Shown here piece after piece: positions 2,655-46,952 of a stretch of DNA of 61,031 nucleotides (the stretch's first letter is position 1; each line of letters opens with the position of its first letter). The notes under the pieces are model-generated. The model worked only from the letters and a program-made list of their open reading frames with translations, ran no database searches and was not told the DNA's origin. The DNA is from Oligoflexales bacterium (GTDB lineage: Bacteria; Bdellovibrionota_B; Oligoflexia; Oligoflexales; JALZUQ01). The stretch lies in assembly GCA_023301465.1 (NCBI GenBank), contig JALZUQ010000032.1, positions 1-61,031 of the forward strand, written 5' to 3'. A program made the position numbers and the translations under genes.

Positions 2655-3010
2655 ACCTACATCCTAAAACATGTTTTAAAACTATTAGACTATGAATTTA
2701 CCATAAAAAACCATGACTTAAGAGGTTAAAATCTTAACAGCTCCCACCCAATTCTCACTTTTGGTGTTGTAAAAGGTGGGTTTTAGCTCTTTACAGCCCT
2801 ATTTCATCTCTTCTGATGGTTTTTTGTACATAATTTAGACAACTATCAAAAAGTAACACGCTAGCAAGAATAAAGGTTTATCTTTAACCCCCCTAAAATA
2901 CTTAGTTATTATTTGGTATTTGCTGGAACTCGTTTTGCAATCTTAGTTGTGTCTCTTCGGAGGCAAGTTGTTTTGAAGTTGTTTTTCCCTATGTTGTATC
3001 GGAGTTCATT
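2655..3010. other. Intergenic region between divergent genes (356 nt)
   Basis: No credible gene is seen here. The stretch should carry promoters for the minus-strand lepB operon and for the plus-strand lipoprotein at 3011. A possible hairpin pairs cccacc at 2743-2748 with ggtggg at 2775-2780, followed by four T; it is too weak to call a terminator. The ribosome-binding site for the plus gene is ggag at 3001-3004, 6 nt before ATG. Confidence 0.6.
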
Positions 3011-3745: not shown

Positions 3746-3765
3746 TCAATATTTCAAAACGCTTC

Positions 3766-17700: not shown

Positions 17701-20700
17701 CCACATTTCTTAAAGAAGAAACTAATCCTGAACCATTATTGTATTCAAACTCAATGGTATCTGATTCCGCAATTGCAGCTGTAGGTATAAAGTCTATAAC
17801 AACCGTACAGTTTGAACCCCCAGCAATCGTTGTTGCACAAGTTCCTCCTGTTCCCGGAAATGCCCCACCTGCAAATGCAAATGGAGTTGCTAAACCGATT
17901 TCGCTGACAGCGGTTGCATCACCACTACCTGAGTTTGTCAGTGTAAATACCTTAGGCTCTACAGCACCAATGCCAACGATTCCATAGTCAAATACCGCAC
18001 CATCTGAAATTTCAATATTTGCAGGTGTTTCACCTTCACCAAGAAGATCTCTTGAAACAGACTGACTTGTAGCTCCATCATTATATTGAAAAACGAGAGA
18101 ATCATTAAAGCTACCAATAGAAGATGGATTAAACTCAACCTCCACTAAACAGGAAGCAGACCCAGCAAGAGTAGATCCGCAATCTCCTCCAGTTCCCGGA
18201 AATGCACCACCTGTAAATTGATAAGGACTTGCCAAACCAGTTCCAATAAGACTAGTTGCATCTGAATCACCATTGTTAGTAACCGTAAATAGTTTTGTTA
18301 AAGCATTACCTATCGTTGTAAGTCCAAAATCATGACTCGGAGCATCTGAGACACTTAGACTTGCAGGAGTACTTGCATTACCAGCAACATCTCTTGTCGA
18401 ACTTGCTGCTGCCGAACCATTTTGATAATTAATAGTAAGAGTATCTGTAAAACTTCCTGATGCTGTAGGACTAAAATCCACATTGATAGTACATGAAGAA
18501 CCTGAAGTAATTACCACACCACAAGATCCACCTGTCCCCGGATAACTTCCTCCAACAAAGACAAAAGGTGCTGTTAAAGTTGCAGCGTTTACACCACTTG
18601 CAGAAAAACCACCCGTATTTGTCAAAGTAAATGTTTTCGAAGTAACTGATCCTGTTGATGTATCTGCATAACTATAGACTGAAGGACCGTCAGAAATTTC
18701 GATGTTCGCATTTGTTTTACCGTCACCGGTGATAATTCGATTAACACTAGATGTGAGTGCACCATTGTCGTAAGTGAGCATGAGTTGACTCACAAAAGAA
18801 TTTTGAACACTTGGATTAAAACCAACCTCTAGAGCACAGGATGCACTGGCAGCTAAAACAGTTCCACAATCGCCATTTGTTCCCGGATAACTCCCGCCAA
18901 CGTAGGAATAAGGAGTTGCTAACGCAGCAGAACTAATAACCGTCGCCGGGATCGCACCATTATTAGTTACCGTAAAAATATGTTGAAGTGAAATATTTAA
19001 AGGTGTTTCACCATAGGCATAAAAAGGCATTTCACTGATTTCAAGAACGGCTGGGCTTCCTGACGCACCTTGAATTGAGCGTGTACTCGTGTTTGCAGCA
19101 ACACCATCTTGATAATTCACAGTGATAGTTTCGTTATTACTTCCTGTTGCCACAGGGGTATATTCAATAATCACCGTACAAGAAGCAGATGCTGCTAAGG
19201 TGTTTCCACATGTCCCACCTACTCCGGGGTAAGAGAGACCTAAAAATCTAAAAGAATTTGCAAGTGCTACCGTTGACAAACTAGTCGCATCGATACCACC
19301 ACTATTTGTTAGGGTAAATGTTTTACTGGTCACTGAACCATTTGCTCTTAAACCAAAATCAAATGTCGGAGCATCAGAAATTTCAATGAGAGCGGGGTCT
19401 TTGCTTTCCGCTTCTATATCTCTAGAAGCAACTCGGTTAATTGCACCATCAAAATAGTTCAATGTGAGGGTGTCAGAAAAAGTTGATACGGTTGTTGGTG
19501 CAAACTCAACCACAAGCTGACAAACTGCTGATGGGTTCAAAGTCGCTCCACACGTACCACCAGTACCCGGATAAGCACCACCTAGAAACCTGATATTACC
19601 GTTTAATGACGCCATATTGATAGCCGTTGCAGGAGAAGCTGCAGAGTTACTAACCGAAAATGTATGCGTAGTTGTGGAACCAACCGCGATTTCATCAAAA
19701 GTGTATGTCAATCCATCTGAAATCATTAAAATTGCTGGAGCGTTCGCCGTTCCTTGCAAAGAAATACTAACACTTTGAGTCGTTGTTCCATTGTCGTATT
19801 CCACTTCAAGAGGCTTGCTTTCAAAACCTGTACTCGTGGGAACGTACTCAATATCTAAAGTACAATTGGTGCTGGGCGTTAACGCTGCACTACAACTACC
19901 ACCCGTTCCCGGAAAGCTTCCGCCTTTATAACGAAACGGAGAAGAAAGACTAACGTCTGTAATACTTGTTGCGTCCATTCCACCTGCACTATGACTTAAA
20001 GTAATAGTTTTTGAATTAATAGACCCAAAAGCAACATTTCCAAAATCATAGGTAGGACCATCTGATAAAGTTAAAACAGCAGGAACTTCACTAGAACCTT
20101 CAATATTTCCGGATGTTGTTTGAGTTGCAACTCCATCATTGTAATTTAAATCAATTGCATCCGTATGTATACCTGCTGCAGTTGGTGAAAAATCAACCCT
20201 AATCGTACACTGTGCACCCACTAAAAGTGAACTGGCACAACTCGCACCAGAACCCGGAAAGACTCCACCAGTTACTGCAAAAGGAGCTGCCAAACCACTA
20301 ATATTAAGAGCGGTTGCAGTCGTTCCACCAGTGTTTTCTACTGTAAAAAATTGAGACTCAGTAGATCCATTTCCAAATAAACCGTATTGAAATAAAGGTG
20401 ATTCTGTAATCGTTAAAACAGCAGGATTTACTCCTTCACCATCAATGATTCGTGATGCCGTCATGTTATTGGTACCATCAAAGTAACTAAGATCTAATGC
20501 ATCTATTTCTAGGCCTGTAGCACTAGGAGTATAGGAAACCACCACCATACAAGACGCTGAAGGTGCTAATGTTGCTCCACAATCCCCACCTGTTCCGGGG
20601 TAAGCTCCACCAACAAAGCTATAATCTCCAGACAATCCACCAACCGCCATAGATGAAGCAGTAAAATTCCCACCATTAATAATCGTAAATGTTTTAGTAC

Positions 20701-23293
20701 TGGTATCCCCTAAAACGACTTCTCCAAAACTATAGTTTGGACCATCTGAAATCGTTAACATACCCGGAGTAACAGAAGTACCCATTAAAGGACGAGCTAC
20801 TGTGCTAGAGCTAACGGCGTCAAAATAACTAAGAGTGATATTTCCAGAGTCCGAAGTCACCACTGACGGACGATACTCCACTTCAATCGTACAGTTCGCT
20901 GCAACCGCAAGTGATGTACCGCAAGTCCCCGCAGTTCCCGGATAGTTATTACCACTAAAAGCGAAACTTCCATTTAATGTTGTTTCAGCGATAGATGTTG
21001 CTGCAACACCACCGATATTTTCTACTGTAAATGTCATTTTCATGACTGAACCATTGGACAAGGTTCCGTAATCAAAGGTCGGACCATCAGAGATTTGTAG
21101 TATTGCCGCAGCAACACCAGTCAATTTAAGGTTTCTAGATGTTGTTTGACTACCGTTACCATCTTGATACTGAATACTTAAAATTCCTGTTACCAAAGAA
21201 CTCGTGGTTGGTGCTGCAGTAATATCAATCGTACATGAAGCAGAAGGGCTTAGTGTCCCAGTACAATTACCTCCAGAACCCGGAAAAGCTCCACCTGTAT
21301 ATGAAAATGGTGCCGGTAAAACTCCACCTGTTACTAATGCAGCATCCACACCACCATTATTGGCGAGGGTTAGAAGACTAGGAACACTTGTACCTGCAGC
21401 AACCTGACCAAAATCCACTAACGGTGCACCAGAAAGCACAAGAGAAGCAGGCATAACAGCATCACCCTGAACAACTCTCGTTGTCGTTTGTGTACTAACG
21501 CTATCATTATAACTAATCGTTAAATTTTCTGAAACGCTACCTGTTGATGTCGGCTGGTAACTGACGTTCACAATACAACTTGCACCGATGCCTAACGTTG
21601 CACCACAACTACCGCCTATCCCAGGATAACTCCCTCCGGTGTAACTCATTGGTAGTGCCAAGGCCGCAGATGTTATAGACTGTGCAGTCGAACCACCACT
21701 ATTTGTAACGATAAAAGAACGCTGTTTGCTAAAACCAACTGGAGTCACTCCAAAATCAAAAACGGGACTGTCAGAGATAGTAAGTTGTGCTGCACCTTGA
21801 CCGGATCCAGAAATTGGACGTGAAACAGATAGAGCAGTCGCACCATCATTATAATTTAAAACAATAGAACTATTAACGACTCCTACAGATATGGGTGTAA
21901 AACTTACTTCAACAAAACAACTTGCACCACTCGCAATGGTTGTCGTGCAATCGCCACCCGTTCCCGGATAGACTCCACCTGTATATGAAAATGGAGCGGA
22001 GATACCAGAAGCATTGACTAATGTCGCAGCCGTTGCACCTGAGTTTGTCACTGTAAATGTTTTTGTGACAGTCGTTGTTAAAGAAGCACTGCCAAAGTTA
22101 AAGGTCAACCCATCTGATATACCTAAAACTGCATTTGCAGAACCGTTTCCTGTCAAAGTAGTTGTCAAAGATTGATTCGCAACACCGTCATTATAGTTAA
22201 CAACCAGTGAAGAACTGTCCGTGCCTACAGCAGAAGGAGTATACGCCACCTCCACTAAACATGATGAACCAACATTAAGCGTAGTCGTACAGTTTCCATT
22301 TGCACCAGGAAAAACTCCCCCGACATAACTATAAGGTGCCGCTAAAGAACCACCTGTTAAATTATTTGCAATGGTTCCACCCGTGTTGACGATTGCTACC
22401 AAAGCTTTATTCATACTACTAACTGCTGTCGGACCAAAATTGTAACTAGACCCATTCGAGTTTACTAACATTGCAGGGTAATTTACGGTTGCAATAATAT
22501 CTCTCACTAAAGAAAGAGTCGAAGAACCATTAAAGTAATCTATAGAGAGACGTACATTCATTGGGCCAACTGATGTTGGGCTCAAAGAAATCGATACAGT
22601 ACAAGACTGTCCTGCAGCCAAAGAACTTGCACAAGTACCTGAAGTACCCGGATAACTACCCCCTGCATAAGAGAAACCCGAACCTAATGTTGTTGGTAAA
22701 AAACCTGTAGCATTACCTGCAGATGGGTTCGTAATGGTAAATGTTTTTGTTTGTGTTGAACCAAGAACCACTGTTCCAAAATTAAAGACCGGACCATCAC
22801 TAATAACAAGTGCTGATGGGTTTGAAGACACACCTGAAACGGGGATTTCAAGAGTATTTCTTACCTGAGGGTCTTCAAGGTAATTAACCGTCACCATGGA
22901 AGTAGATGTTATTTGAGTAAAAGGAACAAACTCTAACTCAAGTGTACATTGAGCATTAACCGCTAATACCGCACCACAATCACCACCAATGCCGGGATAA
23001 CTTCCACCCGTAAACGCAAAAGGAGCAAAAACATTGACTATTCTCATGTCTCCAGCATCAAAACCACCAGTGTTTTCAATCACCACTTGCTTAACAGAAG
23101 TAGAACCAATTGTCGTAGGAGCAAACACAACCGGAATATCGCTGACAACGACCAGCTTTGCAGGCTCACAGTTTTCAACACCTGCAGGGCAGTGGTTGTC
23201 TTGAATTCCTTGATTTCTTCCTAACGGGTTATTATCATCGCTACACGATGCAATAAATCCCATTAAGCCTAAAAAGATAATAAGCTTCATCAT
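8744..23293 (-). CDS. Giant 4,849-residue lipoprotein with about 38 choice-of-anchor-D (ASH/HYDIN-like) Ig repeats
   Basis: The start MMKLIIFLGLMGFIASCSDD is a lipoprotein signal peptide with Cys17 as the lipid site. From about residue 45 to 4380 I count 38 units of about 115 residues. Each opens with a phrase like LEISDGPTFDFG, contains FTVTNTGG, then GGxYPGTGGDCG and a second Cys about 10 residues on (SCTVxVxFxPT), and ends with YNDG...R.xxGxG. This is the beta-sandwich repeat annotated as choice-of-anchor D; the paired cysteines could form a disulfide in every unit. A DUF2341-like domain (about 4380-4470) and a C-terminal beta-rich region of about 380 residues follow. The stop of the upstream LysM-barrel gene overlaps this start (TAATG), and gggggaa lies just upstream. 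A role as a surface fibre or adhesin is inferred. Confidence 0.93.
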   Translation of the reverse strand: MMKLIIFLGLMGFIASCSDDNNPLGRNQGIQDNHCPAGVENCEPAKLVVVSDIPVVFAPTTIGSTSVKQVVIENTGGFDAGDMRIVNVFAPFAFTGGSYPGIGGDCGAVLAVNAQCTLELEFVPFTQITSTSMVTVNYLEDPQVRNTLEIPVSGVSSNPSALVISDGPVFNFGTVVLGSTQTKTFTITNPSAGNATGFLPTTLGSGFSYAGGSYPGTSGTCASSLAAGQSCTVSISLSPTSVGPMNVRLSIDYFNGSSTLSLVRDIIATVNYPAMLVNSNGSSYNFGPTAVSSMNKALVAIVNTGGTIANNLTGGSLAAPYSYVGGVFPGANGNCTTTLNVGSSCLVEVAYTPSAVGTDSSSLVVNYNDGVANQSLTTTLTGNGSANAVLGISDGLTFNFGSASLTTTVTKTFTVTNSGATAATLVNASGISAPFSYTGGVYPGTGGDCTTTIASGASCFVEVSFTPISVGVVNSSIVLNYNDGATALSVSRPISGSGQGAAQLTISDSPVFDFGVTPVGFSKQRSFIVTNSGGSTAQSITSAALALPMSYTGGSYPGIGGSCGATLGIGASCIVNVSYQPTSTGSVSENLTISYNDSVSTQTTTRVVQGDAVMPASLVLSGAPLVDFGQVAAGTSVPSLLTLANNGGVDAALVTGGVLPAPFSYTGGAFPGSGGNCTGTLSPSASCTIDITAAPTTSSLVTGILSIQYQDGNGSQTTSRNLKLTGVAAAILQISDGPTFDYGTLSNGSVMKMTFTVENIGGVAATSIAETTLNGSFAFSGNNYPGTAGTCGTSLAVAANCTIEVEYRPSVVTSDSGNITLSYFDAVSSSTVARPLMGTSVTPGMLTISDGPNYSFGEVVLGDTSTKTFTIINGGNFTASSMAVGGLSGDYSFVGGAYPGTGGDCGATLAPSASCMVVVSYTPSATGLEIDALDLSYFDGTNNMTASRIIDGEGVNPAVLTITESPLFQYGLFGNGSTESQFFTVENTGGTTATALNISGLAAPFAVTGGVFPGSGASCASSLLVGAQCTIRVDFSPTAAGIHTDAIDLNYNDGVATQTTSGNIEGSSEVPAVLTLSDGPTYDFGNVAFGSINSKTITLSHSAGGMDATSITDVSLSSPFRYKGGSFPGTGGSCSAALTPSTNCTLDIEYVPTSTGFESKPLEVEYDNGTTTQSVSISLQGTANAPAILMISDGLTYTFDEIAVGSTTTHTFSVSNSAASPATAINMASLNGNIRFLGGAYPGTGGTCGATLNPSAVCQLVVEFAPTTVSTFSDTLTLNYFDGAINRVASRDIEAESKDPALIEISDAPTFDFGLRANGSVTSKTFTLTNSGGIDATSLSTVALANSFRFLGLSYPGVGGTCGNTLAASASCTVIIEYTPVATGSNNETITVNYQDGVAANTSTRSIQGASGSPAVLEISEMPFYAYGETPLNISLQHIFTVTNNGAIPATVISSAALATPYSYVGGSYPGTNGDCGTVLAASASCALEVGFNPSVQNSFVSQLMLTYDNGALTSSVNRIITGDGKTNANIEISDGPSVYSYADTSTGSVTSKTFTLTNTGGFSASGVNAATLTAPFVFVGGSYPGTGGSCGVVITSGSSCTINVDFSPTASGSFTDTLTINYQNGSAAASSTRDVAGNASTPASLSVSDAPSHDFGLTTIGNALTKLFTVTNNGDSDATSLIGTGLASPYQFTGGAFPGTGGDCGSTLAGSASCLVEVEFNPSSIGSFNDSLVFQYNDGATSQSVSRDLLGEGETPANIEISDGAVFDYGIVGIGAVEPKVFTLTNSGSGDATAVSEIGLATPFAFAGGAFPGTGGTCATTIAGGSNCTVVIDFIPTAAIAESDTIEFEYNNGSGLVSSLRNVEGLGAVAANLQISDSPTYDYGDVSIGGLGKRVFTITNTGGAAATSVTVPAFSSGFGFSSGVYPGTSGDCGTTLNAGATCTVEVDFVPSVVGAATSALQVNYQNAVSAANVSITLEANALTPANIQYSDAPSYDFGARSIGSSNTRTITLTNSGQTAATAITPVALIAPYQFLGGAYPGTGADCGAALAAAATCTVIVDFSPTVSGTQVSSLEVSYQSGAGLENPSMVLSGTGTQPANLVLSQTPSFDYGVHAVGSVQTQTFTLTNNGGIDATAILESTLVAPFVFTGGVFPGTSGTCKALLPNGSNCILEVEYAPTASGPNSGNLTIGYNNGTNTQSIVLPISGTAQTVADLVVSDSPSYDFGPNGTGSLTSKILTVTNNGEFEASSLSGTGLIAPFSFFGGSFPGSGGTCAAKLAGAASCTIVVDFSPIATGNFSDDVELSFYDGLAIQSVTRTLEGEGVGPALIEISDGPIFDFGANAIGSSTQKAFTFTNNGGVDATSIAENGNITGHFSFLGGSYPGTGGTCGSTLAPAASCSVMLSYDPLAPQSDNGNLSISYDDSGSTQTASRFIVATALNPALLVLSPVSPYDFGTVAQGSSNTFTLLVSNSGGAKATSIAGLGLAAPFNYFGGAYPGSGGTCAAVLPATSSCTIILEYAPTNSAVHTGTLDLGYQDGANTQTESMVLDGAADAPANLVFSHGSSFDFGITAIASNQVSLLTITNNGGSNATALSSVALAAPFSYLGGSYPGIGGSCVSSLAVSASCSIAVEYTPSSSIVSNELVSIDYNNGASVVSVSSDLMGTGATPAVLSINESPKYDFSTVGFGTTTDYTLTVSNSGEFEATALTDTGLLSSGFEFSGGTYPGTGGDCGVTLAASSSCDIVVSFVPTATGFLSDSIQIDYFDGTVTQSVSRDVEGTSQPPAVLTISDAVTYDYGLRAVGSITSYTFTVSNANGLSASSMVGSGLIGAFEFSGGSYPGAGGTCGASLPPAGTCTVVVDFLPTNSINYTGTFDITYNDGTSSVTASRPVTGDGSSIAVLEISDGPTYDFGNVAVGSKPSKSFTVSNTGGIEATSISGVSLGSDYQYVGGTYPGTGGSCNAQLVSGSTCTLIVEFEPTASGTLTTDIDLSYDNGLTITNSLRPLTAIAQTPADLEISDAVTYDFGNTAVGGVTSKLFTVTNNGEFTATGMISSLTGLPYLFTGGAFPGTNGDCGSSLVGGGACLVEVSFRPTAAGTFTDEIVLDYASGVGLAGTTRPLTGLASSRALLSFSNAPTLDFGDVTVGLSANAQLTVTNSGAFIASNLVYSALSPSFEYAGGIFPGTTGDCTTTLAVGASCILDLEFVPTADDSYSNILTVDYDDGVATQQITRFMLGDGHDPASLVISNGPTFDFGALILSQSDTKVFTVSNVGGSDAKSVVPTLAGPDFVYTGGAFPGTNGTCGTTIVESQSCFVEIEYSPSASGTQVDTFDLSYNNGVNARTESLAIQGTANTVAVLAIDQDPEFDYGIQATSSAIDQIFVLTNSGQTVASNLSGAGLSAPFGFKGGAFPGVGGSCGASLAGGVSCNVVVTFNPTSNGLSNSTINVSYSDGLATQSLTRNVKGTGADPAVLSIDQGPFFDYGRIVNGTTKSQIFTITHTGGVDATELAETGVAAPFQYVGGSFPGTNGDCAAVLAVGATCTLEVEYAPTASASDFSQVQLAYNDGATMQNISRVIRGDSGTAALLEVSSAPTHDFGTIATGAFVDAVLTVTNSGENNATTLSAAALTAPIFFTGGNYPGTGGDCGVVLNAGASCSLVVRFAPSASGLATQTLTLDYNDGAASAQATRDLQGTGANPAAISISDGPVYDYGSVSNGSVSSKVFTLTNTGGVDATAISDIGLGIPFRFGGGVFPGTAGDCGVTLAVGASCFIDVVFAPTNTGTFSDSIEISFNDGVTTQSSLRAVQGISTSPALVEISNGPFHDFSNIVINQTSDVVLTLTNTGGTDATSMNGEGLSGNFNFKGGTYPGTGGDCGGELAINATCDVVVEFAPVTVGGFSDVLEVSYDDGVANATADRIFIGNGVPVAQLEISNAPTFNFGDVVNTDTSEQILTVTNVGGFVAETISGYGLAAPFAFRGGSYPGSGGTCGGNLGAGASCTIVVTFTPSTSGTFTDTVSLDYSDGSSTLTADRGLEGVGESAALITISESPSYDFGDSVLQVSNAHTFTVTNSGGFEAKTMTGVGLNLHYAFLGGSYPGTGGTCGATLAGNNTSCSVVVEFIPQSTGPHFDTIEINYNDGLTVQQATRNIEGNGQSPATLTISDAAIYDYGLNGTDVGNSKTFTVTQGGDVDATAIASNTLTVPYQYLGGSYPGTGGDCGTTLAVGSTCAIVVDFNSAAAGVFTETIELSFSDGFQTQTTTRDLTGEAIEVAVLEISDGPTFDYGRLLIASENDKTFTVSNTGGFDATTISEVGLAAPYAFKGSSFPGAGGTCGTTIAPGANCTIVVTYTPELFGVESDTIDFSYFDGIGTQNSDRSITGEGFPGGFERCITLAPVAIDAGYQVKVELSMPSDYANISATGDDISFYDNANVKLDFYTQVWDPSGTSTFWVQVKAAGTNEFCMYYGNTNLTGQSDKLAMLTSDSLQDLYFQPRSSGNNFLFESYTSNNEVNIPITTGSGIENLTLTAETLSSLSNPAEGIVQANGPITGRIDNASGFEEIIPLTLAGTKFGYSDNRYTPRHWHLYNPNDSASTITINYYNATGVLQDTTTDVVNSKNPITIDYTPNHDVAIVDATLPVVGMYYGGVGDSTVLVDADTELIGITGGRIWITGTEDATTCTIFYSDNTSESCDTDKGERIGYESGTQGNGVSAYIESDKPVIAITQADGDGGESFTFLPKRHLDNEYLIPTESQYLSVASTEDGQVITVTDPDGSPAPISGTTVLGGAKVAKLYFGSTANTISFSAGTKITSDKPFFVYYEYTSQDETTKFGPVSARVYQHPASVPTLGTENPF
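10155..23161 (-). repeat. Array of 38 diverged coding repeats, about 345 nt each
   Basis: Counting the opening phrase (I-S-D-G/A-P-x-x-D-F/Y-G and variants) gives 38 units. They are clearly homologous as protein but diverged as DNA; I saw no adjacent pair that is near-identical at nucleotide level, so the array looks old rather than recently amplified. The period is very constant; a few units differ by a residue or two, for example an inserted Asn before the second Cys in the third unit from the C-terminus. Confidence 0.9.
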
Positions 23294-31048: not shown

Positions 31049-32761
31049 TTAAGACACTTTACGGGCAGAATTCTCTATATTTAAAGGAATTATTAGTTGA
31101 AAACAAGTATGAGAATTTAAAAGCTTATAGGATAATTCACCACCATGAGCTTTCGCTAATCCTTTTGAAATACTTAGACCTAAACCAGTACCCTCACCTA
31201 CTGCCTTTGAAGTAAAAAACGGCATAAAAAGTTTATTTAATATTTCTTTTTTAATTCCCAAACCACTATCTTGAACTTGAAAACATGCTTTTTCACCATC
31301 AGAGTATACTTTCAAGCCTACCCAAGGCTTCAAGTCATTTTGAACTGCATGAACAGAATTGCTCAACAAGTTTATTAATATTTGCGTAATATGCACTGAT
31401 CTACACTTCAAATCAAAGTCCTGAATGTCTACTTTCAATTCAATTCCTTGAGATTTAAATTTCTCAAGACATAGATCAATAGATTGTGTAGCGATACTCA
31501 AAGAAGAAAATTTTTCAAATGGGTCATCACTTCCGTCACGAGCAAAAGTTCGAAGACCTCTAACAATAGATGAAATCCTTGTCGTCATATCTAGGATAAC
31601 ACTTGCAGATTTGTTAAATTTTTCAGAATCTAATTTTTTTAAAACTGACAAAACTTGTAATTGATCTGCATTTGAAGCAATGATTGCTAAAGGATTATTA
31701 ATTTCATGTGCAATACCGCTTGCCATTTCACCTAGAGAGGCCATTTTTGAACTTTGTACTGCAAGCATTTCTTTTGATTTCAACTCTTCCATTAATTGAG
31801 ATTCATGAGTTCTATCTTTTATCCACCCGACAACTTTAGTTGGCTTGCTATCACTCCCCCTCAAACACGCACCTTCAATTTTTATATATCTATGAACAGA
31901 GTCTACTGCCACTTCACATCTATGCTTAAACCTTGGAGTTTCACCTTCAAGGTATTTTTGTATTTCATCATACAAAACTCGTCGATCATTTTTATGTAGC
32001 AACCTAAAAAAATCCTTAAAAGAAGAGTTCTCGTTAGGTTTATTGAATAATTTTTGCCAATTATTACCAATTTTGATATTCCCTTCCACTAAATCCCACT
32101 CCCAAACAACACTCGAAGTTGCGTCTAAAGCAAGGTTTAATCTATCGTTAAGATTTTTCTTTTCATTTTTCTCGTTTAAAAGCATTTGATTAAAGTCTTT
32201 ATGAGATTTTTCAAACAAATAAACAAAGTACAGAGTAAACCCCGAGACAACGGCAATAGCTAATACATTTCTAAACGAAGAACTCCAAAGCAACTCAATT
32301 CCAACAGAGCTCCAAGAACCATTGAGATAATAGAGCAAACTAACCGCAAAAATATTTAATAAAGCAGAGCAAAACCCGCCAACAACACCCAACATAAATG
32401 CAGAAGCTACAGGAAAGAAAAGAAGTACTAATAGTGGTGCAGATATCACTGTTTCTTCAAGAAAAAGCCCAGAAATTAAAATAATTTGAGGAATAAAACA
32501 ATGTACAACCAACGGGATCCAAAGCTTTTTGGTCCACTTTGAAATATACAAGCTAACAATCATGACAACGGCTAATGAGATAAGTATAAAACCACTATAT
32601 TTTGTAGACTCACGAAATGAAAATATTTCAGAAAACAGCAGGACCACTGGCAGTAATGTAAAAAATGTTGCTGAACCTACGATATAATTCCATTTAAACT
32701 TAAGCCAAGGCTTATTTTCAAGGATTTCTTTAGGGTAATAATCTAGAGTTTTTCTCATCAT
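31049..32761 (-). CDS. Membrane sensor histidine kinase with PAS-like domain
   Basis: The 570 residues show five to six membrane spans (about 24-185), a short coiled linker, a PAS-like fold (about 207-320, SVVWEWDLVEGNIKIGNNW), the HisKA helix with phospho-acceptor His352 in GEMASGIAHEINNPLAI, and an ATPase domain with N box LLSNSVHAVQ, G1 DSGLGIKKE and G2 GTGLGLSI. It belongs to the group whose kinase core follows a PAS domain directly. No response regulator gene is nearby, so it is an orphan. It starts 8 nt after the stop of a serine protease/cytochrome fusion gene and is almost certainly co-transcribed with it. Confidence 0.93.
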   Translation of the reverse strand: MMRKTLDYYPKEILENKPWLKFKWNYIVGSATFFTLLPVVLLFSEIFSFRESTKYSGFILISLAVVMIVSLYISKWTKKLWIPLVVHCFIPQIILISGLFLEETVISAPLLVLLFFPVASAFMLGVVGGFCSALLNIFAVSLLYYLNGSWSSVGIELLWSSSFRNVLAIAVVSGFTLYFVYLFEKSHKDFNQMLLNEKNEKKNLNDRLNLALDATSSVVWEWDLVEGNIKIGNNWQKLFNKPNENSSFKDFFRLLHKNDRRVLYDEIQKYLEGETPRFKHRCEVAVDSVHRYIKIEGACLRGSDSKPTKVVGWIKDRTHESQLMEELKSKEMLAVQSSKMASLGEMASGIAHEINNPLAIIASNADQLQVLSVLKKLDSEKFNKSASVILDMTTRISSIVRGLRTFARDGSDDPFEKFSSLSIATQSIDLCLEKFKSQGIELKVDIQDFDLKCRSVHITQILINLLSNSVHAVQNDLKPWVGLKVYSDGEKACFQVQDSGLGIKKEILNKLFMPFFTSKAVGEGTGLGLSISKGLAKAHGGELSYKLLNSHTCFQLIIPLNIENSARKVS

Positions 32762-32769
32762 TATTTATT

Positions 32770-34227
32770 TTATTGAGTATCTAAAAATGCTTCTAATGCA
32801 GATCTTTCATCTGCACTTAATGCTTTTACTACTTGCACCATTCTCGGTGGAACACCCGTTGAGTCAATTTCTTCTTTACTTCTACCTGCAGCAGAATCAT
32901 GGCAACCAGCACCTTGGCACTTATTTGCAAATAAAGCATTACCCGTACTTATCAATTTTTTAAGTTTTTCTGCTTTCTCTTTCTCCAGTCGATCTTTTTC
33001 TTCTTGTTCTTTTGCTGTTTTTTCTGCTTCTGTGTCTTCTTTTTCATCATCATTTGTGTCATTTTTTTGATCTTCAATTTCCAGAATTGAATGTTCTTCT
33101 TCTCCATCAAAATCAGATTGTACAGGACCAACGCTTGGGTGATTTGGTAGACCCACACCATTTGGAACTGCAGTAGTTCTGATACCGCTTAATGACTCTG
33201 TTGTCGAAGAGCTAGTAGATAGATACTCATAACCTGACGCAAGAGCAACCCACGAACCTCTAGCAGACTTAGGATTTGAAGATAGTTCAGCACCCATCCA
33301 AACTCGATCAGCACTCGTTAACTTTTTAGCATTTTCTGGAAAAATTATATTTGCACCTTTTTTATTTGCTGATGTAATAATTTTTGCAGCCTCTGAATCA
33401 GGGGTGATTGCAACAAAAGCATTGACTGCAAAGACCGCTTGTTTTGTATCTAAGTGAGGCTTGCCTTGATTATCAATCATTTCAACATACTTGTTACTGC
33501 CTGTGTCAGTCTTTCCTTCAATCTTTAAAAAGTAAATTCCAACAGCAAATCCAACCAAACGACCAGTCGAGTCAAAAACAGGACCACCAGAATCTCCCGG
33601 AGCTGCTAAGGCTTTAGCATTTTGATAAATAACATTTCCTCTTGAATCCCTATCAAATTTGAAAAATGAGTAGTTGAGATCTTTTGATGCATAAAAGATT
33701 GAATTCTCTCCTCTTCTGAGCTCTTGCTTTGAAGATGAGATTTTTGCTTGATTAATATCAAAGCTATCCGAACCAAAACCAAAAATTCTAAACTGTTCGC
33801 CTTTTTTCAAAGGAGTTGTTCTAATTACTGGTGTTGGTACCGATTGAAAAACATCAGATTGAAATATAACAATCGCAATATCTCGTTTAGCAGCTTCTTG
33901 ATTCACTGTTGAAGTATCAGCTAACCCATGAAATAACTCTACATGTTTAGGGTAATGAAAAATCTCTTTAAAAATTGCATAAAAATTTCCGGGTGCTGTC
34001 TCATTTTTCTTATAGCAATGAGCAGGCATCATCAGTGAATTCTTCGACACCACGACACCCGCACAAGTTATATTATTTCTTGCATCTGTTACAACTTTGA
34101 CAACCTCAAGGTAACTCCAGTTATTTACAACTTGGCCACCAGCAATTTTGACATCATTTGTTTCTTGTGAAAAAATTTTGCAAGCAGAAACACCTACTAG
34201 CATGGATAAAAATAAAATATACTTCAT
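32770..34227 (-). CDS. Trypsin-like serine protease fused to a C-terminal cytochrome c-like domain, lipoprotein
   Basis: The N-terminus ends in the lipobox VSAC (Cys16). An S1 protease domain follows: IAGGQVV near residue 28 resembles the activation site, His70 is in MPAHC, Asp116 in KRDIAIV, and Ser213 in APGDSGGPV. After about residue 350 comes an acidic, Lys/Glu-rich linker (about 385-425). The last ~55 residues resemble a class I cytochrome c: GNALFANKCQGAGCH, a possible axial Met463 in PPRMVQVV, and the ending LSADERSALEAFLDTQ. The haem motif is CX4CH (Cys437, Cys442, His443) rather than CXXCH. The gene is directly followed by a histidine kinase. Confidence 0.88.
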   Translation of the reverse strand: MKYILFLSMLVGVSACKIFSQETNDVKIAGGQVVNNWSYLEVVKVVTDARNNITCAGVVVSKNSLMMPAHCYKKNETAPGNFYAIFKEIFHYPKHVELFHGLADTSTVNQEAAKRDIAIVIFQSDVFQSVPTPVIRTTPLKKGEQFRIFGFGSDSFDINQAKISSSKQELRRGENSIFYASKDLNYSFFKFDRDSRGNVIYQNAKALAAPGDSGGPVFDSTGRLVGFAVGIYFLKIEGKTDTGSNKYVEMIDNQGKPHLDTKQAVFAVNAFVAITPDSEAAKIITSANKKGANIIFPENAKKLTSADRVWMGAELSSNPKSARGSWVALASGYEYLSTSSSTTESLSGIRTTAVPNGVGLPNHPSVGPVQSDFDGEEEHSILEIEDQKNDTNDDEKEDTEAEKTAKEQEEKDRLEKEKAEKLKKLISTGNALFANKCQGAGCHDSAAGRSKEEIDSTGVPPRMVQVVKALSADERSALEAFLDTQ

Positions 34228-34338: not shown

Positions 34339-36417
34339 TTAATGATAATATGCAATTGCTGCTTGAGCTTGGAACTCATATGGCGACTTGACACCTTGTA
34401 ACCGGATACCTAAATTCTTAGAAAACGGCAGTTGAATCCCAACTAAATGCCTGTAGTAAAACTCTTTAAAACGATCTTCATAAAACTTCACTTGAGACGC
34501 AAACATAAAATTAAAATCACTGGGAGTATTCACACGTAAACCAGCTTCTCCCCAGTAATCATATGTAAAGCCTGATTCAATAGCATCTGCATATTGCAGA
34601 GCAATATTCATTTTTGCATAAGGCTGAAAGACAAATGACTTGGTAAAGTTCTTAGAAATACCAATTCCACCAATCATACCACCAGCTAAGCAATTAAAAC
34701 ATCTTGGGTCTCGAATCCTATCAAAGCCCATATCTATTTGCCAAAGTGGTTTATGCCAAAGAGGACCAAAGCTGTTTCTAGCTTCGATACCTACTAATCT
34801 AAGTCTTTCAAGGTGAATTCTGTGTCCTTTATTATCAATATAAAACTCAGCTAACATCATTTCTAACCTTGAATAAGTAGGCATACCAAACACAGGGTCT
34901 AAAAAGTCGTGTAAAGCAACGCGAACTCCTAATATACCCTGGTGTTCTTTGAAACTATTCTCAAGATCTAACCCTCGGTAGCCTAAGGTCCAACGCATCG
35001 ATTCATGGGACTCATGTGGAGCGTTACTTGGCTTTCTTCTTAGTATGCCTGCAATCTTCTTTTCATGATCGGATTCCATTTGACTTCTTGTTAATAGTGC
35101 AACGTGCTTTTTTTTCAGAGTACTCGGATCTTTTTTGATAAGACCATCTAAATTTTGCATATCAAAATCATCTAAGACAGCATCTAAAGCAGGTGCGGTA
35201 ATACCTTTGATCTGAGATTTTTCTAGCCCTCTGAATTCATGAAACAAAGATTTTTCATCGTCATTCAACAAATTATAACGCTTTGAAACAATTGTAGATA
35301 AAGAAGGCCTAAATCCAATATGATCAAGATCAACCATGCCTTTTTGAATGGCTTGCTTAATGGTGTCGATAGGAATAATCCAAGGAGGTAAGCCCTCTAA
35401 AACTTTATAGCGTGGAGCAGCAACATCTAATACTCGTAAGATATAGTAAGAACAATTTTCATCAAAATAAAAATAGTCAAAAGCAGCCTGACCCATTTCC
35501 CATAAATGCTCTAAAAATAAGTTTTTTTCTGATTCCCTTAGTTTTAAAGGATATTCCCAGAGATCTCTTGACTCATAGTCACTATACTCGCGAACCTTAA
35601 AATAATAAGGGATTTTTGCATATTCTCCACGAAAGCCTCCAACCATTCCCATGACACCATATAGTAAAGCATTGCTTGTGGTAGGAATAGCTGCATAGTT
35701 GATGCCATAATCTAACAAATCACTTTTAACAGAATGATCATTTTGTTTTCGAAACTTACTCACCTTGAGAAAAGAGTGCCCAAAAGCTGAAGAAGGGTTA
35801 TTGAGATAATATGACGAAAAAACAAGTTTAATGACTTCTGTACCAAGCTTTTCACGGTAGTTTTGATAATCTTTACAACCAGCAAGTAATGCTTGGTAGC
35901 TCCAGCCACCCGTATGCTTTGCAAGAAAAGAAAGTCTTGCTGGATACTGACACCTTGCATTTTGTTGCACCTTTGCAGCATTCATCGTTAATAGCGTATT
36001 ATTTTCAAATGCTTTTATCGTTGCTTCAAGCTCTTGTTTTGGATTTTTTCTACCTTCTTTTGAAATAAAAAATTGAATACCATCTTCAAGGCTTTTACAG
36101 TCACTTCCTGAGCATGTCATATGTAGTAGCTGTAACCACTCAGAATCAAACGCTAAGCCTTTTTGATTCGACTGTTTGAGAACATCCGACCAAATAGGCT
36201 CTAACTTTAAATATTCAGTTTGGTCAGCTTCAACTTGAGCAAAAGCAGAGCTACAGAAAAAGAAAACACAAAAAAAGAGAGAGCCAACAGGCTCTCTCTT
36301 CTTAGATAGAAATATAGTTAGAAAACTATACGCGTGTGCACTCGCCTTGTAGCTTATTCGCTTCAATTTGATTAAGAATGCCACTGCCAATTTCCTCAAC
36401 TGATAAGCTTGGTGCAT
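34339..36417 (-). CDS. DUF4105 (Lnb N-terminal-like) envelope protein
   Basis: DUF4105 proteins carry a papain-like periplasmic domain related to the N-terminus of the lipoprotein N-acyltransferase Lnb. Here the domain is recognisable by SSYYLNNPSSAFGHSFLK (possible catalytic His), GMVGGFRGEYAKIPYYFKV and YFYFDENCSYYILRVLD with its conserved Cys. The C-terminal ~250 residues are barrel-like strands. The true start is uncertain: the frame opens at ATG 36417 inside the upstream DUF3015 gene, while the signal peptide (SLFFCVFFFCSSAFA) is encoded at about 36245-36295. A start between 36300 and 36330 would need a rare codon such as ATA. A terminator hairpin lies inside this stretch. Confidence 0.85.
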   Translation of the reverse strand: MHQAYQLRKLAVAFLIKLKRISYKASAHAYSFLTIFLSKKREPVGSLFFCVFFFCSSAFAQVEADQTEYLKLEPIWSDVLKQSNQKGLAFDSEWLQLLHMTCSGSDCKSLEDGIQFFISKEGRKNPKQELEATIKAFENNTLLTMNAAKVQQNARCQYPARLSFLAKHTGGWSYQALLAGCKDYQNYREKLGTEVIKLVFSSYYLNNPSSAFGHSFLKVSKFRKQNDHSVKSDLLDYGINYAAIPTTSNALLYGVMGMVGGFRGEYAKIPYYFKVREYSDYESRDLWEYPLKLRESEKNLFLEHLWEMGQAAFDYFYFDENCSYYILRVLDVAAPRYKVLEGLPPWIIPIDTIKQAIQKGMVDLDHIGFRPSLSTIVSKRYNLLNDDEKSLFHEFRGLEKSQIKGITAPALDAVLDDFDMQNLDGLIKKDPSTLKKKHVALLTRSQMESDHEKKIAGILRRKPSNAPHESHESMRWTLGYRGLDLENSFKEHQGILGVRVALHDFLDPVFGMPTYSRLEMMLAEFYIDNKGHRIHLERLRLVGIEARNSFGPLWHKPLWQIDMGFDRIRDPRCFNCLAGGMIGGIGISKNFTKSFVFQPYAKMNIALQYADAIESGFTYDYWGEAGLRVNTPSDFNFMFASQVKFYEDRFKEFYYRHLVGIQLPFSKNLGIRLQGVKSPYEFQAQAAIAYYH
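36269..36300 (-). terminator. Intrinsic terminator between DUF3015 and DUF4105, inside the signal-peptide coding region
   Basis: On the minus strand agagagagcc and ggctctctct pair perfectly (36290-36299 with 36276-36285) around the loop tgtt, followed by seven T. It begins about 26 nt after the DUF3015 stop. The same bases are in frame with the DUF4105 protein, and the T run encodes phenylalanines of its signal peptide. Confidence 0.9.
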
Positions 36418-36790
36418 GAAAAATGCTACTATAGCCTTGCTTCAATACTTTAGCAAGATTTGCAGAATCAGAACATCCTAAGATTTCAGCTAGCGTTTGG
36501 ATTGATTCACCTTCACCTTTAGATGCTTCAGTAGCCAATGCATATTGGTTCACATCTAAGAAGTTATTAAGCTCAGCACTAGAAGCACCTTCTTTACAGC
36601 CAGAAGTTCCAGAAGTGATTCCAAAAAACTGAGAGTAAAAAGAAGCGTTGGTAGTTGAAGCAAGAGTTTGCATCTTTTTACCGCCTAATAACATTTGACC
36701 AAGTCCACAACCTGCAGGACCTACAAATTTGTCTGCAAAAGCCATAGAGCCCATCATAAAAATTGCACAAGAAATTAATAATTTACGCAT
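36326..36790 (-). CDS. DUF3015-family periplasmic protein, copy 2
   Basis: A signal peptide (MRKLLISCAIFMMGSMAFA) precedes the DUF3015 fold: PAGCGLGQMLLG, then ATTNASFYSQFFGITSGTSGC and the C-terminal helical part with GCSDSANLAKVL. Cysteines pair at equivalent places in the paralogue just upstream, from which it is separated by 4 nt. The function of the family is not established. The genomic neighbourhood with DUF4105 suggests a common envelope task. A strong terminator follows. Confidence 0.9.
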   Translation of the reverse strand: MRKLLISCAIFMMGSMAFADKFVGPAGCGLGQMLLGGKKMQTLASTTNASFYSQFFGITSGTSGCKEGASSAELNNFLDVNQYALATEASKGEGESIQTLAEILGCSDSANLAKVLKQGYSSIFHAPSLSVEEIGSGILNQIEANKLQGECTRV

Positions 36791-36794
36791 ACGA

Positions 36795-37346
36795 TTACCC
36801 TTTCGTTAAGCTAGGTGAACAAGACTCTGTCAACTGACGATCAGCACGAATAATATTCGTGATTTGTCTACTTGACTCATAAGCATCTTCTGAGCCGAAG
36901 ACATCTACGTAGTTTTGTTTAATTTTTTGACCGAAGTAAGAAGCATCATTGCAACGAAAGATTGAAGCTAGTCCTGAGATTGACTCGCCTTGGCCTCTTG
37001 CACCTTCTTTTGAAACCAACTCACGGTTCATTTCAATAAAAGTAGCAGCTGCCATACCCATTCGAGGGATATCACAGTTTGAAGTACCGGAAGTAATACC
37101 AAAAGTTTGAGTTCCCCAGAACCCATTTGTGGTTGCAGAGAAAACCTGCATAAAGCCCGGCTTAGCACCGAAGATGATAGAACCAAGTCCACATCCAGCA
37201 GTTCCGTAGCCACCTTTAGACATCATTGCCTTCTTTTTTCTTTTCTTTCTTTTCTTTCTTTTCTTTTTCGCCATTGCATCTACAGATATTCCACCTGCAA
37301 ATAAAACTGCAAAACTAAGCATCCAAAAACGACATTTGTTTAGCAT
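36795..37346 (-). CDS. DUF3015-family protein, copy 1, with Lys/Arg-rich insertion
   Basis: The DUF3015 core is clear (YGTAGCGLGSIIFGAKPG, FGITSGTSNCDIP, IFRCNDASYFGQKIKQNYVD). Between signal peptide and core stands a run of Lys/Arg (KKKRKKRKKRKKK) that the second copy lacks. The frame is open to ATG 37361, but ATG at 37346 (MLNKCRFWML) has aagga at the right distance, so I start there (183 residues). The two copies are a tandem duplication that has diverged; only a few motifs are still identical. Confidence 0.9.
   Translation of the reverse strand: MLNKCRFWMLSFAVLFAGGISVDAMAKKKRKKRKKRKKKAMMSKGGYGTAGCGLGSIIFGAKPGFMQVFSATTNGFWGTQTFGITSGTSNCDIPRMGMAAATFIEMNRELVSKEGARGQGESISGLASIFRCNDASYFGQKIKQNYVDVFGSEDAYESSRQITNIIRADRQLTESCSPSLTKG
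37229..37269. repeat. 41-nt polypyrimidine/polypurine tract inside a coding region
   Basis: The plus strand from 37229 to 37269 is entirely C and T, with a recurring tttctttctttt pattern close to mirror symmetry. It encodes the Lys/Arg run of the first DUF3015 protein. Such tracts are prone to slippage and can form triplex DNA. Confidence 0.85.
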
Positions 37347-37410
37347 CTTGCATCCTTTCAATATTATAAATAATTACTTAAAGTATAAATTTGTTAGTTC
37401 AATAAAGCAA

Positions 37411-39462: not shown

Positions 39463-41817
39463 ATGCCAACAAATACCCTAAAAAATCAATACGACTGCGA
39501 CACACTACACCCAGGAGAAAACCACCAAGGCAGCCAAGAAAGCTGGACTGAACATTTAATGGATACTGTCCAGATTATTTCTCATACGAAAGGACGCATC
39601 AGGTTTCACTTAGGCTTTGAAGGTGATGAAATATTAAATGATGCAATACGTAGAGAATCATCAAAAAAAACTGGCATACAGTTTCGTTATTATAACTATC
39701 AAACAAACAATGTTTTATATTACTACACGGATGAAGTTACTGCTTCTGATGTTGCCTTGTGCCTTTTTCAATCTATTACAGAGTTTGCAAAAAGACATGG
39801 TGAATGTGAGATTGGCGACGACCACTCTCACGAACATGACAACCATGAGCACAACCATGAACACAACCATGAGCACAATCATACCCATGACCACTCAGAA
39901 GGAAGTGTTTGCGGGCATAATGATGAAGAAGACGAAGACTGCGGACATGATCACGGCAATCTTCAAACTCAAAAGCAATTTAACCGCGAAATAGTAAAGC
40001 TATCCCTCACCGGCATTGCTCTTGGGTATTTTATTTGGCGTCGCATGCGAAAAGGAACACCGGCACTCGCATCAGGACCAATTGGTTGGGTGAGTGCGAT
40101 TGCTACTATTACTGCTGGCTACCCTATTTTTAAAGGTGGCATTAAATCAGTTCAACCAAACCAAAAAATAAACGACGATACTCTTATCTCGATTGCTATT
40201 GCTGCCACTCTCATCATGAGAGAAAACATTACCGGCTTAAGTGTTGTGTGGCTAATTAACCTCGGACGTTTTCTCGAAGCAATGACCCTCAAAAAATCAA
40301 GAGATGAAATCAAAGCTCTTTTAGACCTTGCTCCTGACGAAGCTTGGTTAGTTATGCCAGATGGTAAAGTAGAAAAACAACCTGTCAAAACTATCGAAAA
40401 AAACGAAATCATAAGAGCTTTTAAAGGCGACCGTATTGCACTTGACGGCTTTGTAGAATCCGGAGAAGCCAGCATTATCGACAGCCACCTTAGTGGTGAG
40501 CCTCTCCCAAAATCATGCACGGCTGGGGCAAAGGTTTTTGCGGGAACCATCGTGGAAGATGGACAGATTGATATCAAAGTTGAAAATCTAGTGACTGAAA
40601 CAGCTATTGCAAAGGTAGTGGCAGAAGTACAAAAACTAAAACGCACGAAAGCCCCTATCGACCGATTTGGACAACAATTCGCTTCTAAATTTGTTCCAAT
40701 TTCTCTAGGAATTGCTGGTGGTGTTTACTTATTTACAAGAGACTGGCAAAGAGCCATCACCTCCCTTGTTATTGCTTGCCCATGTGCCGCTGGCCTAGCA
40801 ACACCTACGGCCGTATCAGCTGGAATTGGAAAAGCAGCCAAAAAAGGCATTCTCGTCAAAGGTGGCTTGCACTTAGAAAATGCTTCAAAAGCAAATGTAT
40901 TTGTCTTTGATAAAACAGGAACTCTTACAGTGGGCTTTCCGCAGCTCACGAAAGTAGAATGTTTTCATAAAGCATACTCTGAAGAAGAACTTTTATTTGT
41001 TGCGGCGTCCATTGAAAAATACAGCCAACACCCCCTCGCAAAAGTCATTGTAAAAACCGCTGAATCGCAAAATATAAACTTACATGAAGTTGAATCATTC
41101 AAAATCAATGCTGGCAAAGGCGTTCAGGGCGTGATTGATCATGAGCAATATTTTATTGGAAACTTTAAACACATATCAGCTTATGCCAATAACGATAAAG
41201 TAAAACCTTCTGCAAAAGCACTCACAGAAGTATATGTAGCCCACTCTGACAAAGGCATCATTGGAAGACTCAGTTTTCAAGATGAACTGAGACCGGGTAG
41301 CAAGCGAGTCATTTCCACGTTAAAAGAACTTGGACATGAAGTGGTTCTACTTTCTGGTGATAGACAAAATGTTGTGGATCAAGTAGCAAAAGAGCTTGAG
41401 ATTGATTTAGCCATTGGTGATGCCATGCCAGACGATAAAGCGAGCTTTATCCAAAGAAGACAATCCCAAGGTAAAGTGGTTGCCATGATTGGAGAAGGCG
41501 TCAATGATGCTCAAGCCCTTGCCGGAGCAGATGTGAGCATTGCCATTGCGGCTGGTCAGTGCGACATTGCGGTAGATACTGCAGATATCACCATTGCCGG
41601 CGACCATATCGAAAAAGTGCTGGATACACTTCACCTATCAAATCAAACCATTAGAACCATCAAACAGAATTTTGTTGCTTCTATTGGTGTGAATATGATT
41701 GGATTGGGCCTCGGAGCTGGTGGGAAGCTTTCGCCCTTTATGGCGGCCATCGTTCACAACCTGAGTACCATTGCGGTGGTTCTCAATTCCATGAGCCTCA
41801 GCAAAAAAAAGGTATAA
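39463..41817 (+). CDS. Heavy-metal translocating P1B-type ATPase with His-rich segment
   Basis: This inner-membrane pump exports a metal ion. The N-terminus has an HMA2-like domain (TKGRIRFHLGF, about residues 30-110) and then a His/Asp/Glu run (HEHNHEHNHEHNHTHDHS, about 118-165). The core shows SGEP in the actuator domain, the membrane metal site CPC (Cys439, Cys441), phosphorylation Asp483 in FDKTGTLT, the HP pair in QHPLAKV, and GEGVNDAQAL where most relatives have GDG. The last segment HNLSTIAVVLNSMSL resembles CtpC-type pumps. The likely substrate is a divalent cation such as Zn, Mn or Co, but sequence alone does not decide this. Two tiny membrane proteins flank it. Confidence 0.93.
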   Translation: MPTNTLKNQYDCDTLHPGENHQGSQESWTEHLMDTVQIISHTKGRIRFHLGFEGDEILNDAIRRESSKKTGIQFRYYNYQTNNVLYYYTDEVTASDVALCLFQSITEFAKRHGECEIGDDHSHEHDNHEHNHEHNHEHNHTHDHSEGSVCGHNDEEDEDCGHDHGNLQTQKQFNREIVKLSLTGIALGYFIWRRMRKGTPALASGPIGWVSAIATITAGYPIFKGGIKSVQPNQKINDDTLISIAIAATLIMRENITGLSVVWLINLGRFLEAMTLKKSRDEIKALLDLAPDEAWLVMPDGKVEKQPVKTIEKNEIIRAFKGDRIALDGFVESGEASIIDSHLSGEPLPKSCTAGAKVFAGTIVEDGQIDIKVENLVTETAIAKVVAEVQKLKRTKAPIDRFGQQFASKFVPISLGIAGGVYLFTRDWQRAITSLVIACPCAAGLATPTAVSAGIGKAAKKGILVKGGLHLENASKANVFVFDKTGTLTVGFPQLTKVECFHKAYSEEELLFVAASIEKYSQHPLAKVIVKTAESQNINLHEVESFKINAGKGVQGVIDHEQYFIGNFKHISAYANNDKVKPSAKALTEVYVAHSDKGIIGRLSFQDELRPGSKRVISTLKELGHEVVLLSGDRQNVVDQVAKELEIDLAIGDAMPDDKASFIQRRQSQGKVVAMIGEGVNDAQALAGADVSIAIAAGQCDIAVDTADITIAGDHIEKVLDTLHLSNQTIRTIKQNFVASIGVNMIGLGLGAGGKLSPFMAAIVHNLSTIAVVLNSMSLSKKKV

Positions 41818-45363: not shown

Positions 45364-45407
45364 AGAAATCCTTGCACCTTTTTCATTGTGAGGATAACTT
45401 AATCTTC

Positions 45408-46952
45408 ATGATGAGAACACAAATATATACAAGACTTCTTTTTGTCGTTGCTATGACTGCTATGATGCCAAATCTAATAGCAGAACCTTGGTTAGCGATT
45501 CGTTATTCACAAAATTGTGCTGGCTGCCACGCTCCGGGCCGAAAAAATGTCGAGGCAATAGATCGACGTTGTAGTTTGTCCTGCCAAGGTTGTCATGTAA
45601 GCCCTTCTGGTGGTGGCATGCGAAACCACTACGGTAAATGGAATGAAGACAAATGGCTAGCTAGCTTTAAATCATCAAAGCTAGGTCACTCTAAAAACTT
45701 TCACAGCATGAAAGAACAAACATACCAACATGTGTCAAAAGCATTATGGCCAAGTAAACACGTCAAAGTATCTAAAGGAAAAGCATCAAAAACAAAAAAG
45801 AAACACACTAAGAAATACTCTAAGAAAAACTTTATTAAAGAGGGTTTCGGCTTAAAAACAAAGTCTGAGTACATGAAAGAAACCGACTATGACGACAAAC
45901 ACACTTTCAAAGTAACCGCAAAAAACCTAAATGAATTTACTGCTCAGATCCCTAAAGAAGACCCCTACCGCCAGATGCTGACATCAAAGGTGGATGCTGG
46001 AGCGGATATACGCACTCAGCTTTATCATGATCTTGATGGTGGCGAGACACACTATTTTTTGATGGCGGTAGATTTCGCAGCAAGATGGCGACCTATCTAC
46101 AAAAATGTACATGTTGTCTATGAGGCTCGTGCCTTTGGTGGACCTCAAAGTGAAACCAGACAAACACTTACTAGCCCATCGACTCGCAGCCTGTATTTGC
46201 TCGTTGATTACCTGCCTTATAATACCTACTTTCAATACGGTATCTATAAACCGCTTTTTGGAAACGCTGTTGCAGATCACACTAGAATGTCGAGACGGAT
46301 GTTTGCGGGAGCTTTTGGATCTCCAGGTAGAGGTGCAGACTACCAGCTAAACTTTGAAACTTTGAGTGTTGGTGCAGCTCCTAATGTTCCTTTTATCAAC
46401 CTACATTACATTATGAAAGCTCATCAAGGCGGACAGAGTACAGATGTTCAAGGTATTGCTGGAAACTTAGGCCTTAAATTTGTAACTCTTGGCGGCAATG
46501 TTAACTACTCTTTTTGGAGAACAAACAGTACTTCAGATGCTGGAGATAAGACAGAAGTAGAAATGCATTCTATCAATATTGGCGGAATGATTAGACCAAA
46601 ATTTAATGGTGTCACTCATCCTCTTGTCTTGAATGCAGAAGTGATGACATTAAATTTAGACCGAAAAAGCACGGATTTCCGCTCTACTGCTGTATTTAGC
46701 CTAGAATCATATTTTAATGTCTACAAAGAAAACTATGTCACGTTTGAAGCTGCTATTTCGAATACAGCCATGGACATGTCTATAGGGAGCTCTTCACAAT
46801 TTAAATTTGGCCTTCGTTCTTTTATTATGCCGGGAGTTGATGTCCAGCTTGGATACGGAATTGACAAAAATACAGTTGATCCTGTGGGGAATCAAGTCGC
46901 CCAATCAATGAACCGTGGGTCTATCACAAGTCAATTACATTTATACTTCTAA
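45408..46952 (+). CDS. Diheme domain fused to an outer-membrane beta-barrel
   Basis: After a signal peptide (about 1-22) the mature N-terminus has CAGCH and, 20 residues on, CQGCHVSPSGGGMRNHYGKW, two c-type haem sites. A Lys-rich linker (about 95-145) leads to about 340 residues of alternating strands (LYHDLDGGETHYFLMAVDFA, NIGGMIRPKFNG and the closing SITSQLHLYF with a terminal Phe), typical of a barrel inserted by BAM. The open frame reaches back to a TTG at 45372, but ATG at 45408 or 45411 starts directly before the signal peptide. An electron-conducting or haem-sensing porin is inferred. Confidence 0.85.
   Translation: MMRTQIYTRLLFVVAMTAMMPNLIAEPWLAIRYSQNCAGCHAPGRKNVEAIDRRCSLSCQGCHVSPSGGGMRNHYGKWNEDKWLASFKSSKLGHSKNFHSMKEQTYQHVSKALWPSKHVKVSKGKASKTKKKHTKKYSKKNFIKEGFGLKTKSEYMKETDYDDKHTFKVTAKNLNEFTAQIPKEDPYRQMLTSKVDAGADIRTQLYHDLDGGETHYFLMAVDFAARWRPIYKNVHVVYEARAFGGPQSETRQTLTSPSTRSLYLLVDYLPYNTYFQYGIYKPLFGNAVADHTRMSRRMFAGAFGSPGRGADYQLNFETLSVGAAPNVPFINLHYIMKAHQGGQSTDVQGIAGNLGLKFVTLGGNVNYSFWRTNSTSDAGDKTEVEMHSINIGGMIRPKFNGVTHPLVLNAEVMTLNLDRKSTDFRSTAVFSLESYFNVYKENYVTFEAAISNTAMDMSIGSSSQFKFGLRSFIMPGVDVQLGYGIDKNTVDPVGNQVAQSMNRGSITSQLHLYF

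Follow-up and report, generated by a model that had tools for sequence, protein, structure and literature searches.

The window, the whole stretch of 61,031 nucleotides analysed from an Oligoflexales bacterium, carries on its minus strand a gene pair composed of a lipid-anchored protease (32770–34227; 485 aa) and a histidine kinase (31049–32761). The protease gene is a single open frame that encodes an S1A domain, a linker and a C-terminal module with a CX4CH motif. The kinase gene follows 8 nt after the protease stop without an intervening terminator, and both genes are probably co-transcribed. The coordinates given for both genes in a first-pass annotation of the sequence proved exact, and the catalytic residues His70, Asp116 and Ser213 were found where it had placed them. 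The lipobox (VSA/C16), the acidic linker and the CX4CH motif (CQGAGCH, residues 437–443) that it had described are likewise present.

Upstream of the protease gene, the region 34339–37361 (minus strand) comprises a gene for an Lnb_N/DUF7840/DUF7843 protein preceded by two tandem genes for DUF3015 proteins; Lnb_N relatives were detected in 40 of the 58 genomes of the class. Other parts of the window encode a 4849-aa protein in which HYDIN/CFA65-like and ASH Ig-like domains predominate (8744–23293, minus strand), a P-type ATPase with a long N-terminal stretch rich in His, Asp and Glu (39463–41817, plus strand), and a protein of 526 aa (45372–46952, plus strand) that contains two or more CXXCH motifs and matches no Pfam model at E 0.001. 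An ordinary HtrA-type protease with PDZ domains (57301–58785, plus strand) contrasts with the protease bearing the candidate haem tail.

The predicted signal peptide of the latter, MKYILFLSMLVGVSAC (34180–34227, minus strand), ends in the lipobox, the layout of which recurs in many S1 relatives. It is followed by a putatively lipidated propeptide of 12 residues, CKIFSQETNDVK (34147–34182, minus strand). From this anatomy, cleavage at K27/I28 on activation would leave the lipid on the propeptide and free the enzyme. The S1A domain spans residues 28–300 (33328–34146, minus strand) and was recognized by the Pfam models Trypsin_2 (E 6e-10) and Trypsin (E 2e-9). The triad has S1A spacing and is accompanied by GDSGG, the zymogen-type start I28-A-G-G is located about 42 residues before the catalytic His, D212 directly precedes S213, and C55 and C71 represent the predicted disulfide pair, as supported by the alignment of relatives. 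In the chymotrypsin register, I28, C55, H70, C71, D116, D212 and S213 correspond to positions 16, 42, 57, 58, 102, 194 and 195, respectively. S1 matches were obtained in 24 of the 96 genomes searched, at identities of 22–36 %. Since most S1 relatives aligned from the class share the lipobox, a short segment and a K-[IV]-x-[GN]-G start, the protease is, as judged from sequence, a typical representative of a lipoprotein S1A family that has expanded in the lineage and is common in Oligoflexales.

The linker (residues 301–424; 32956–33327, minus strand) is of low complexity, acidic over residues 366–400 (43 % Asp/Glu) and then rich in Glu and Lys up to residue 424; a helix at 400–440 is predicted by a low-confidence single-sequence model. 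Residues 425–485 (32773–32955, minus strand) form a probable divergent single-haem mini-cytochrome c module, delimited by alignment with the module family described below. It contains CQGAGCH as putative haem-attachment motif (C437/C442/H443; 32899–32919, minus strand) and, as candidate distal haem ligand, Met463 (32839–32841, minus strand), which falls on the family's invariant Met position in the alignment. The motif is thus of the CX4CH type, not the CXXCH of class I or X183-like cytochromes. In shuffles of the protease's own residues, CX4CH arose by chance in 0.06 % and any CX2-4CH in 0.17 % of cases.

A domain search for S1 plus cytochrome c, as proposed in the first-pass annotation, returned the clear trypsin domain but no Pfam cytochrome in the tail (scan to E<=1), and NCBIfam cytochrome models did not match the tail either; the designation "cytochrome c-like" is nevertheless made probable by comparison with the module family. 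A PDB search with the tail alone yielded nothing significant, the CX4CH-containing cytochrome c3 (1i77) appearing at E 2.4. Single-sequence AlphaFold models were too poor for use (pLDDT 37 for the whole protein, 61 for the tail), Foldseek with the low-confidence tail model gave no match, and the helices flanking the module on its N- and C-terminal sides are predicted with low confidence only.

Searching the genome with the tail revealed one other CX4CH sequence, at the C-terminus of a second lipoprotein (G000:C38). This sister protein of 282 aa (L144, G000:C38:1-9000; 2917–3765, minus strand) consists of an N-terminal domain of no assigned family, an Asp/Asn-rich linker and a C-terminal CGNASCH mini-cytochrome. 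A profile built from the window tail and the sister module detected single-haem modules of the CXXCH type within the order, the hosts being a lipoprotein of 118 aa, a protein with tandem modules, a DUF1587 (PSD3) protein and one with FN3-like repeats. Predicted single-haem cytochrome c modules are accordingly attached to many lipoproteins across Oligoflexales. Four such modules alternate with FN3-like repeats in a 1106-aa ORF on the minus strand of L137 (G030:C15:1-9000). Unrelated proteins with a C-terminal CX4CH module (CGGAGCH and CERAGCH) are encoded by two further genomes of the order (loci L078 and L039), the latter locus also containing one CXXCH. The tandem HQLC-type repeat of a 114-aa ORF on the plus strand of L044 (G000:C48) is probably an array of repeats and not a haem protein. 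In an alignment of eight module family members, G, L, C, C, H, I, M and L are invariant; the window tail retains each of them, and the stretch between haem motif and Met is shorter in the window module than in the family. Searched against the PDB, the family profile matched entries named "Lipoprotein cytochrome c" (8qjg, E 5e-13; 8qj6, E 2e-12), and the family resembles X183 domains.

Affiliation of the window tail with this family was assessed from held-out scores, because the value of E 2e-16 obtained with the module in its own profile is circular. Against a profile made from CXXCH members only, the held-out sister module scored E 3e-12, which shows that true members of the family can have CX4CH. 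The window module, when held out, scored E 0.1 against the CXXCH-only profile and E 0.02 with the sister included, close to the best reversed decoys (0.15 and 0.02, respectively); it scored above all of 2000 permutations that kept its CX4CH. Given held-out values near those of decoys, yet above every motif-keeping permutation, the tail is regarded as a probable divergent member of the single-haem cytochrome c module family, and haem binding by it as likely. Haem attachment appears feasible in this cell, as the genome encodes many CXXCH cytochromes as well as two proteins with strong Cytochrom_C_asm matches, whose lengths of 673 and 243 aa are those expected of CcmF and CcmC; literature on the tolerance of Ccm for variant haem motifs was not found.

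The combination of protease and module was encountered in this genome only. Among the S1 relatives examined, none contains CX2-4CH in the protease frame, the haem module is absent from all 25 related protease loci, and no other protease is found among the module hosts examined. No orthologue of the fusion was detected in the 58 class genomes or in a collection of 84,980 species, scans of the latter relying on short exact or degenerate patterns. In this collection, the whole protein retrieved no relatives, and the S1 alignment retrieved seven, none of which has a kinase or a haem module in its vicinity; plasmids searched by tblastn gave no match. The gene represents a real, unusual fusion of two recognizable parts of known families.

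The kinase was assigned HisKA (E 9e-9) and HATPase_c (E 1e-18) by Pfam, as expected of a two-component kinase, and simple hydropathy suggests about six membrane spans. Its previous description as a PAS histidine kinase with five or six spans therefore holds for the kinase domains and the membrane region, but the PAS match (E 0.0015) is below the curated cut-off. The kinase is also, as noted before, not accompanied by a response regulator: Pfam scans of the main genes of the 61-kb window (a few ORFs of about 100–250 aa, mostly overlapping other genes, were left out) detected no such domain. Among the matches listed from the 58 class genomes, those to the kinase begin at residue 183 at the earliest and mostly around residue 300, i.e. 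they cover the transmitter and at most the PAS region, and none includes the N-terminal membrane region. As the kinase lacks a full-length relative in the class, conservation cannot serve as a test of its pairing with the protease. Searches by tblastn of 25 distinct S1 regions (up to about 5 kb on each side, less where contigs end) produced no match to the kinase, the Lnb_N neighbour or DUF3015. The suggested check for a conserved kinase neighbour thus placed the kinase beside none of the 25 related S1 loci; these homologues are distant paralogues and not orthologues, so that the proposed functional link is weakened rather than overturned.

We favour an envelope-anchored S1A protease with a tethered single-haem cytochrome c module, a proposal which, taken as a whole, we consider about evenly balanced between right and wrong. 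The protein would be exported and lipidated on Cys16, and a cut after Lys27 would free Ile28, such that the protease is activated in the manner of chymotrypsin and simultaneously severed from its lipid anchor. The C-terminal module, separate from the catalytic site and carried by a flexible stalk that is first acidic and then helical, would be a divergent cytochrome c of X183-like type, in which C437, C442 and H443 attach the haem and Met463 is the candidate sixth ligand. It would most likely function as an electron-transfer or docking unit that recruits the protease to a redox partner located in the envelope or extracellularly. All five cysteines of the protein find a place in this reading (C16 for the lipid, C55–C71 for the disulfide, C437/C442 for haem). 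Counting against it are the held-out E of 0.02–0.1, the shorter loop, the lack of a Pfam cytochrome match and the low-confidence fold; moreover, as no fusion orthologue was found, there is no conservation to show selection as a unit. The weak held-out score, the shortened loop and the lack of a Pfam match would also suit a small helical tail without haem, in which CX4CH is degenerate or convergent and its two cysteines are paired as a disulfide. Such a tail is rather unlikely, since the module outscores all motif-preserving permutations and retains the family-invariant residues, the sister CX4CH lipoprotein of the same genome is a clear family member, and CX4CH sequences recur in two other genomes of the order. 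A lack of any functional connection between the neighbouring genes, with the fusion having arisen recently and by accident in this lineage alone, would agree with the occurrence of the fusion in one genome without orthologues in the class or in the large species collection. This is extremely improbable, because a decaying accident would lose what is observed here: an intact frame, a structured linker and every family-invariant module residue.

Haem may also be bound while its redox chemistry is irrelevant, the module acting solely as a targeting or complex-docking tail of an otherwise ordinary envelope protease. The attachment of modules via flexible linkers to many unrelated hosts is in line with this, as is the case of MamE, an HtrA-type protease of magnetosomes that carries magnetochrome domains (PMC3971196, PMC3905215): mutants with impaired fixation of haem complement partly, whereas a protease-impaired variant fails to restore the phenotype, and the haem modules were judged to be of limited role (PMC3971196). 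Nothing specific contradicts such a tail, which is hard to tell by sequence alone from the favoured tethered cytochrome, and we consider it unlikely. The different effects of impaired haem fixation and impaired proteolysis in MamE also advise caution against assuming haem control in the present protein. The first-pass annotation had proposed precisely such control, with the redox state of the haem or gas binding switching the protease, which would then make or destroy a periplasmic signal for the adjacent kinase. The 8-nt spacing without terminator, the lack of a response regulator nearby and the multi-span membrane input region of the kinase are compatible with this proposal, yet we regard it as quite improbable: such a kinase stands beside none of the related S1 loci, the class matches listed lack its N-terminal region, Met463 as candidate sixth ligand argues for electron transfer and not for gas binding, and the module is also attached to proteins without protease or kinase. 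Gene adjacency is the sole evidence for a link between protease and kinase, the haem-controlled signal has no positive support beyond it, and literature on links between kinase, protease and cytochrome was not found. Signalling to the kinase is possible but speculative, and so is control of proteolysis by haem. A haem-gated zymogen, in which maturation and detachment from the lipid anchor depend on the redox state of the CX4CH cytochrome and the result is sensed by the adjacent membrane kinase, is highly improbable, and we know of no precedent for a proteolytic redox signalling pair of this kind.

If the favoured reading of a protease with a tethered cytochrome is correct, trypsin–haem fusions exist outside magnetosomes, and tethered cytochromes of the X183 type extend from polysaccharide-related proteins to a protease. 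The effect of a tethered haem on an enzyme would then become directly testable. The analysis also reveals that single-haem modules of one family, CX4CH variants included, are appended to lipoproteins across Oligoflexales; since Pfam misses the window tail, other such haem proteins may go uncounted.

With the S1A lipoprotein proteases of Oligoflexales, the window protein shares the lipobox, the short propeptide, the K-[IV]-x-[GN]-G start, the C42–C58 pair and GDSGG; it differs in the candidate haem module, which none of the relatives examined contains. The CX4CH attachment motif of its tail is shared with cytochrome c3 (1i77), which has a multi-haem fold, and the non-significant match at E 2.4 supports only that CX4CH can hold haem. 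X183 domains are small c-type cytochromes and electron-transfer modules in multi-domain secreted proteins with flexible linkers (PMC8981238, PMC10916295), with reported His/Met ligation (PMC10916295); they occur with DUF1587 and FN3 in Cbp2D of Cellvibrio and, as TtX183, in Teredinibacter (PMC8981238, PMC10916295). The window module resembles them as a probable small single-haem c module on a long linker with Met463 as candidate for His/Met ligation, and its relatives in the order adjoin DUF1587 and FN3-like repeats as in Cbp2D. X183 domains, however, have CXXCH and are attached to carbohydrate-related domains, whereas the window module has CX4CH and a shorter loop and is attached to a protease. 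MamE and the window protein are alike in joining a trypsin-fold protease to c-type haem module(s), the haem of the latter being probable, in one envelope protein. MamE is of the HtrA/DegP type with PDZ domains, a membrane helix anchor and CXXCH modules that usually lie in tandem, flanked by the trypsin and PDZ domains; the window protein is of the S1A zymogen type with a lipid anchor, no PDZ match and one C-terminal CX4CH module. The earlier assertion that protease–cytochrome fusions are rare can be upheld, although MamE provides a precedent (PMC3971196), so that the principle of combining a trypsin domain with c-type haem modules is already known. The window protein departs from MamE in protease type, anchor, number and type of haem motifs and the architecture without PDZ.
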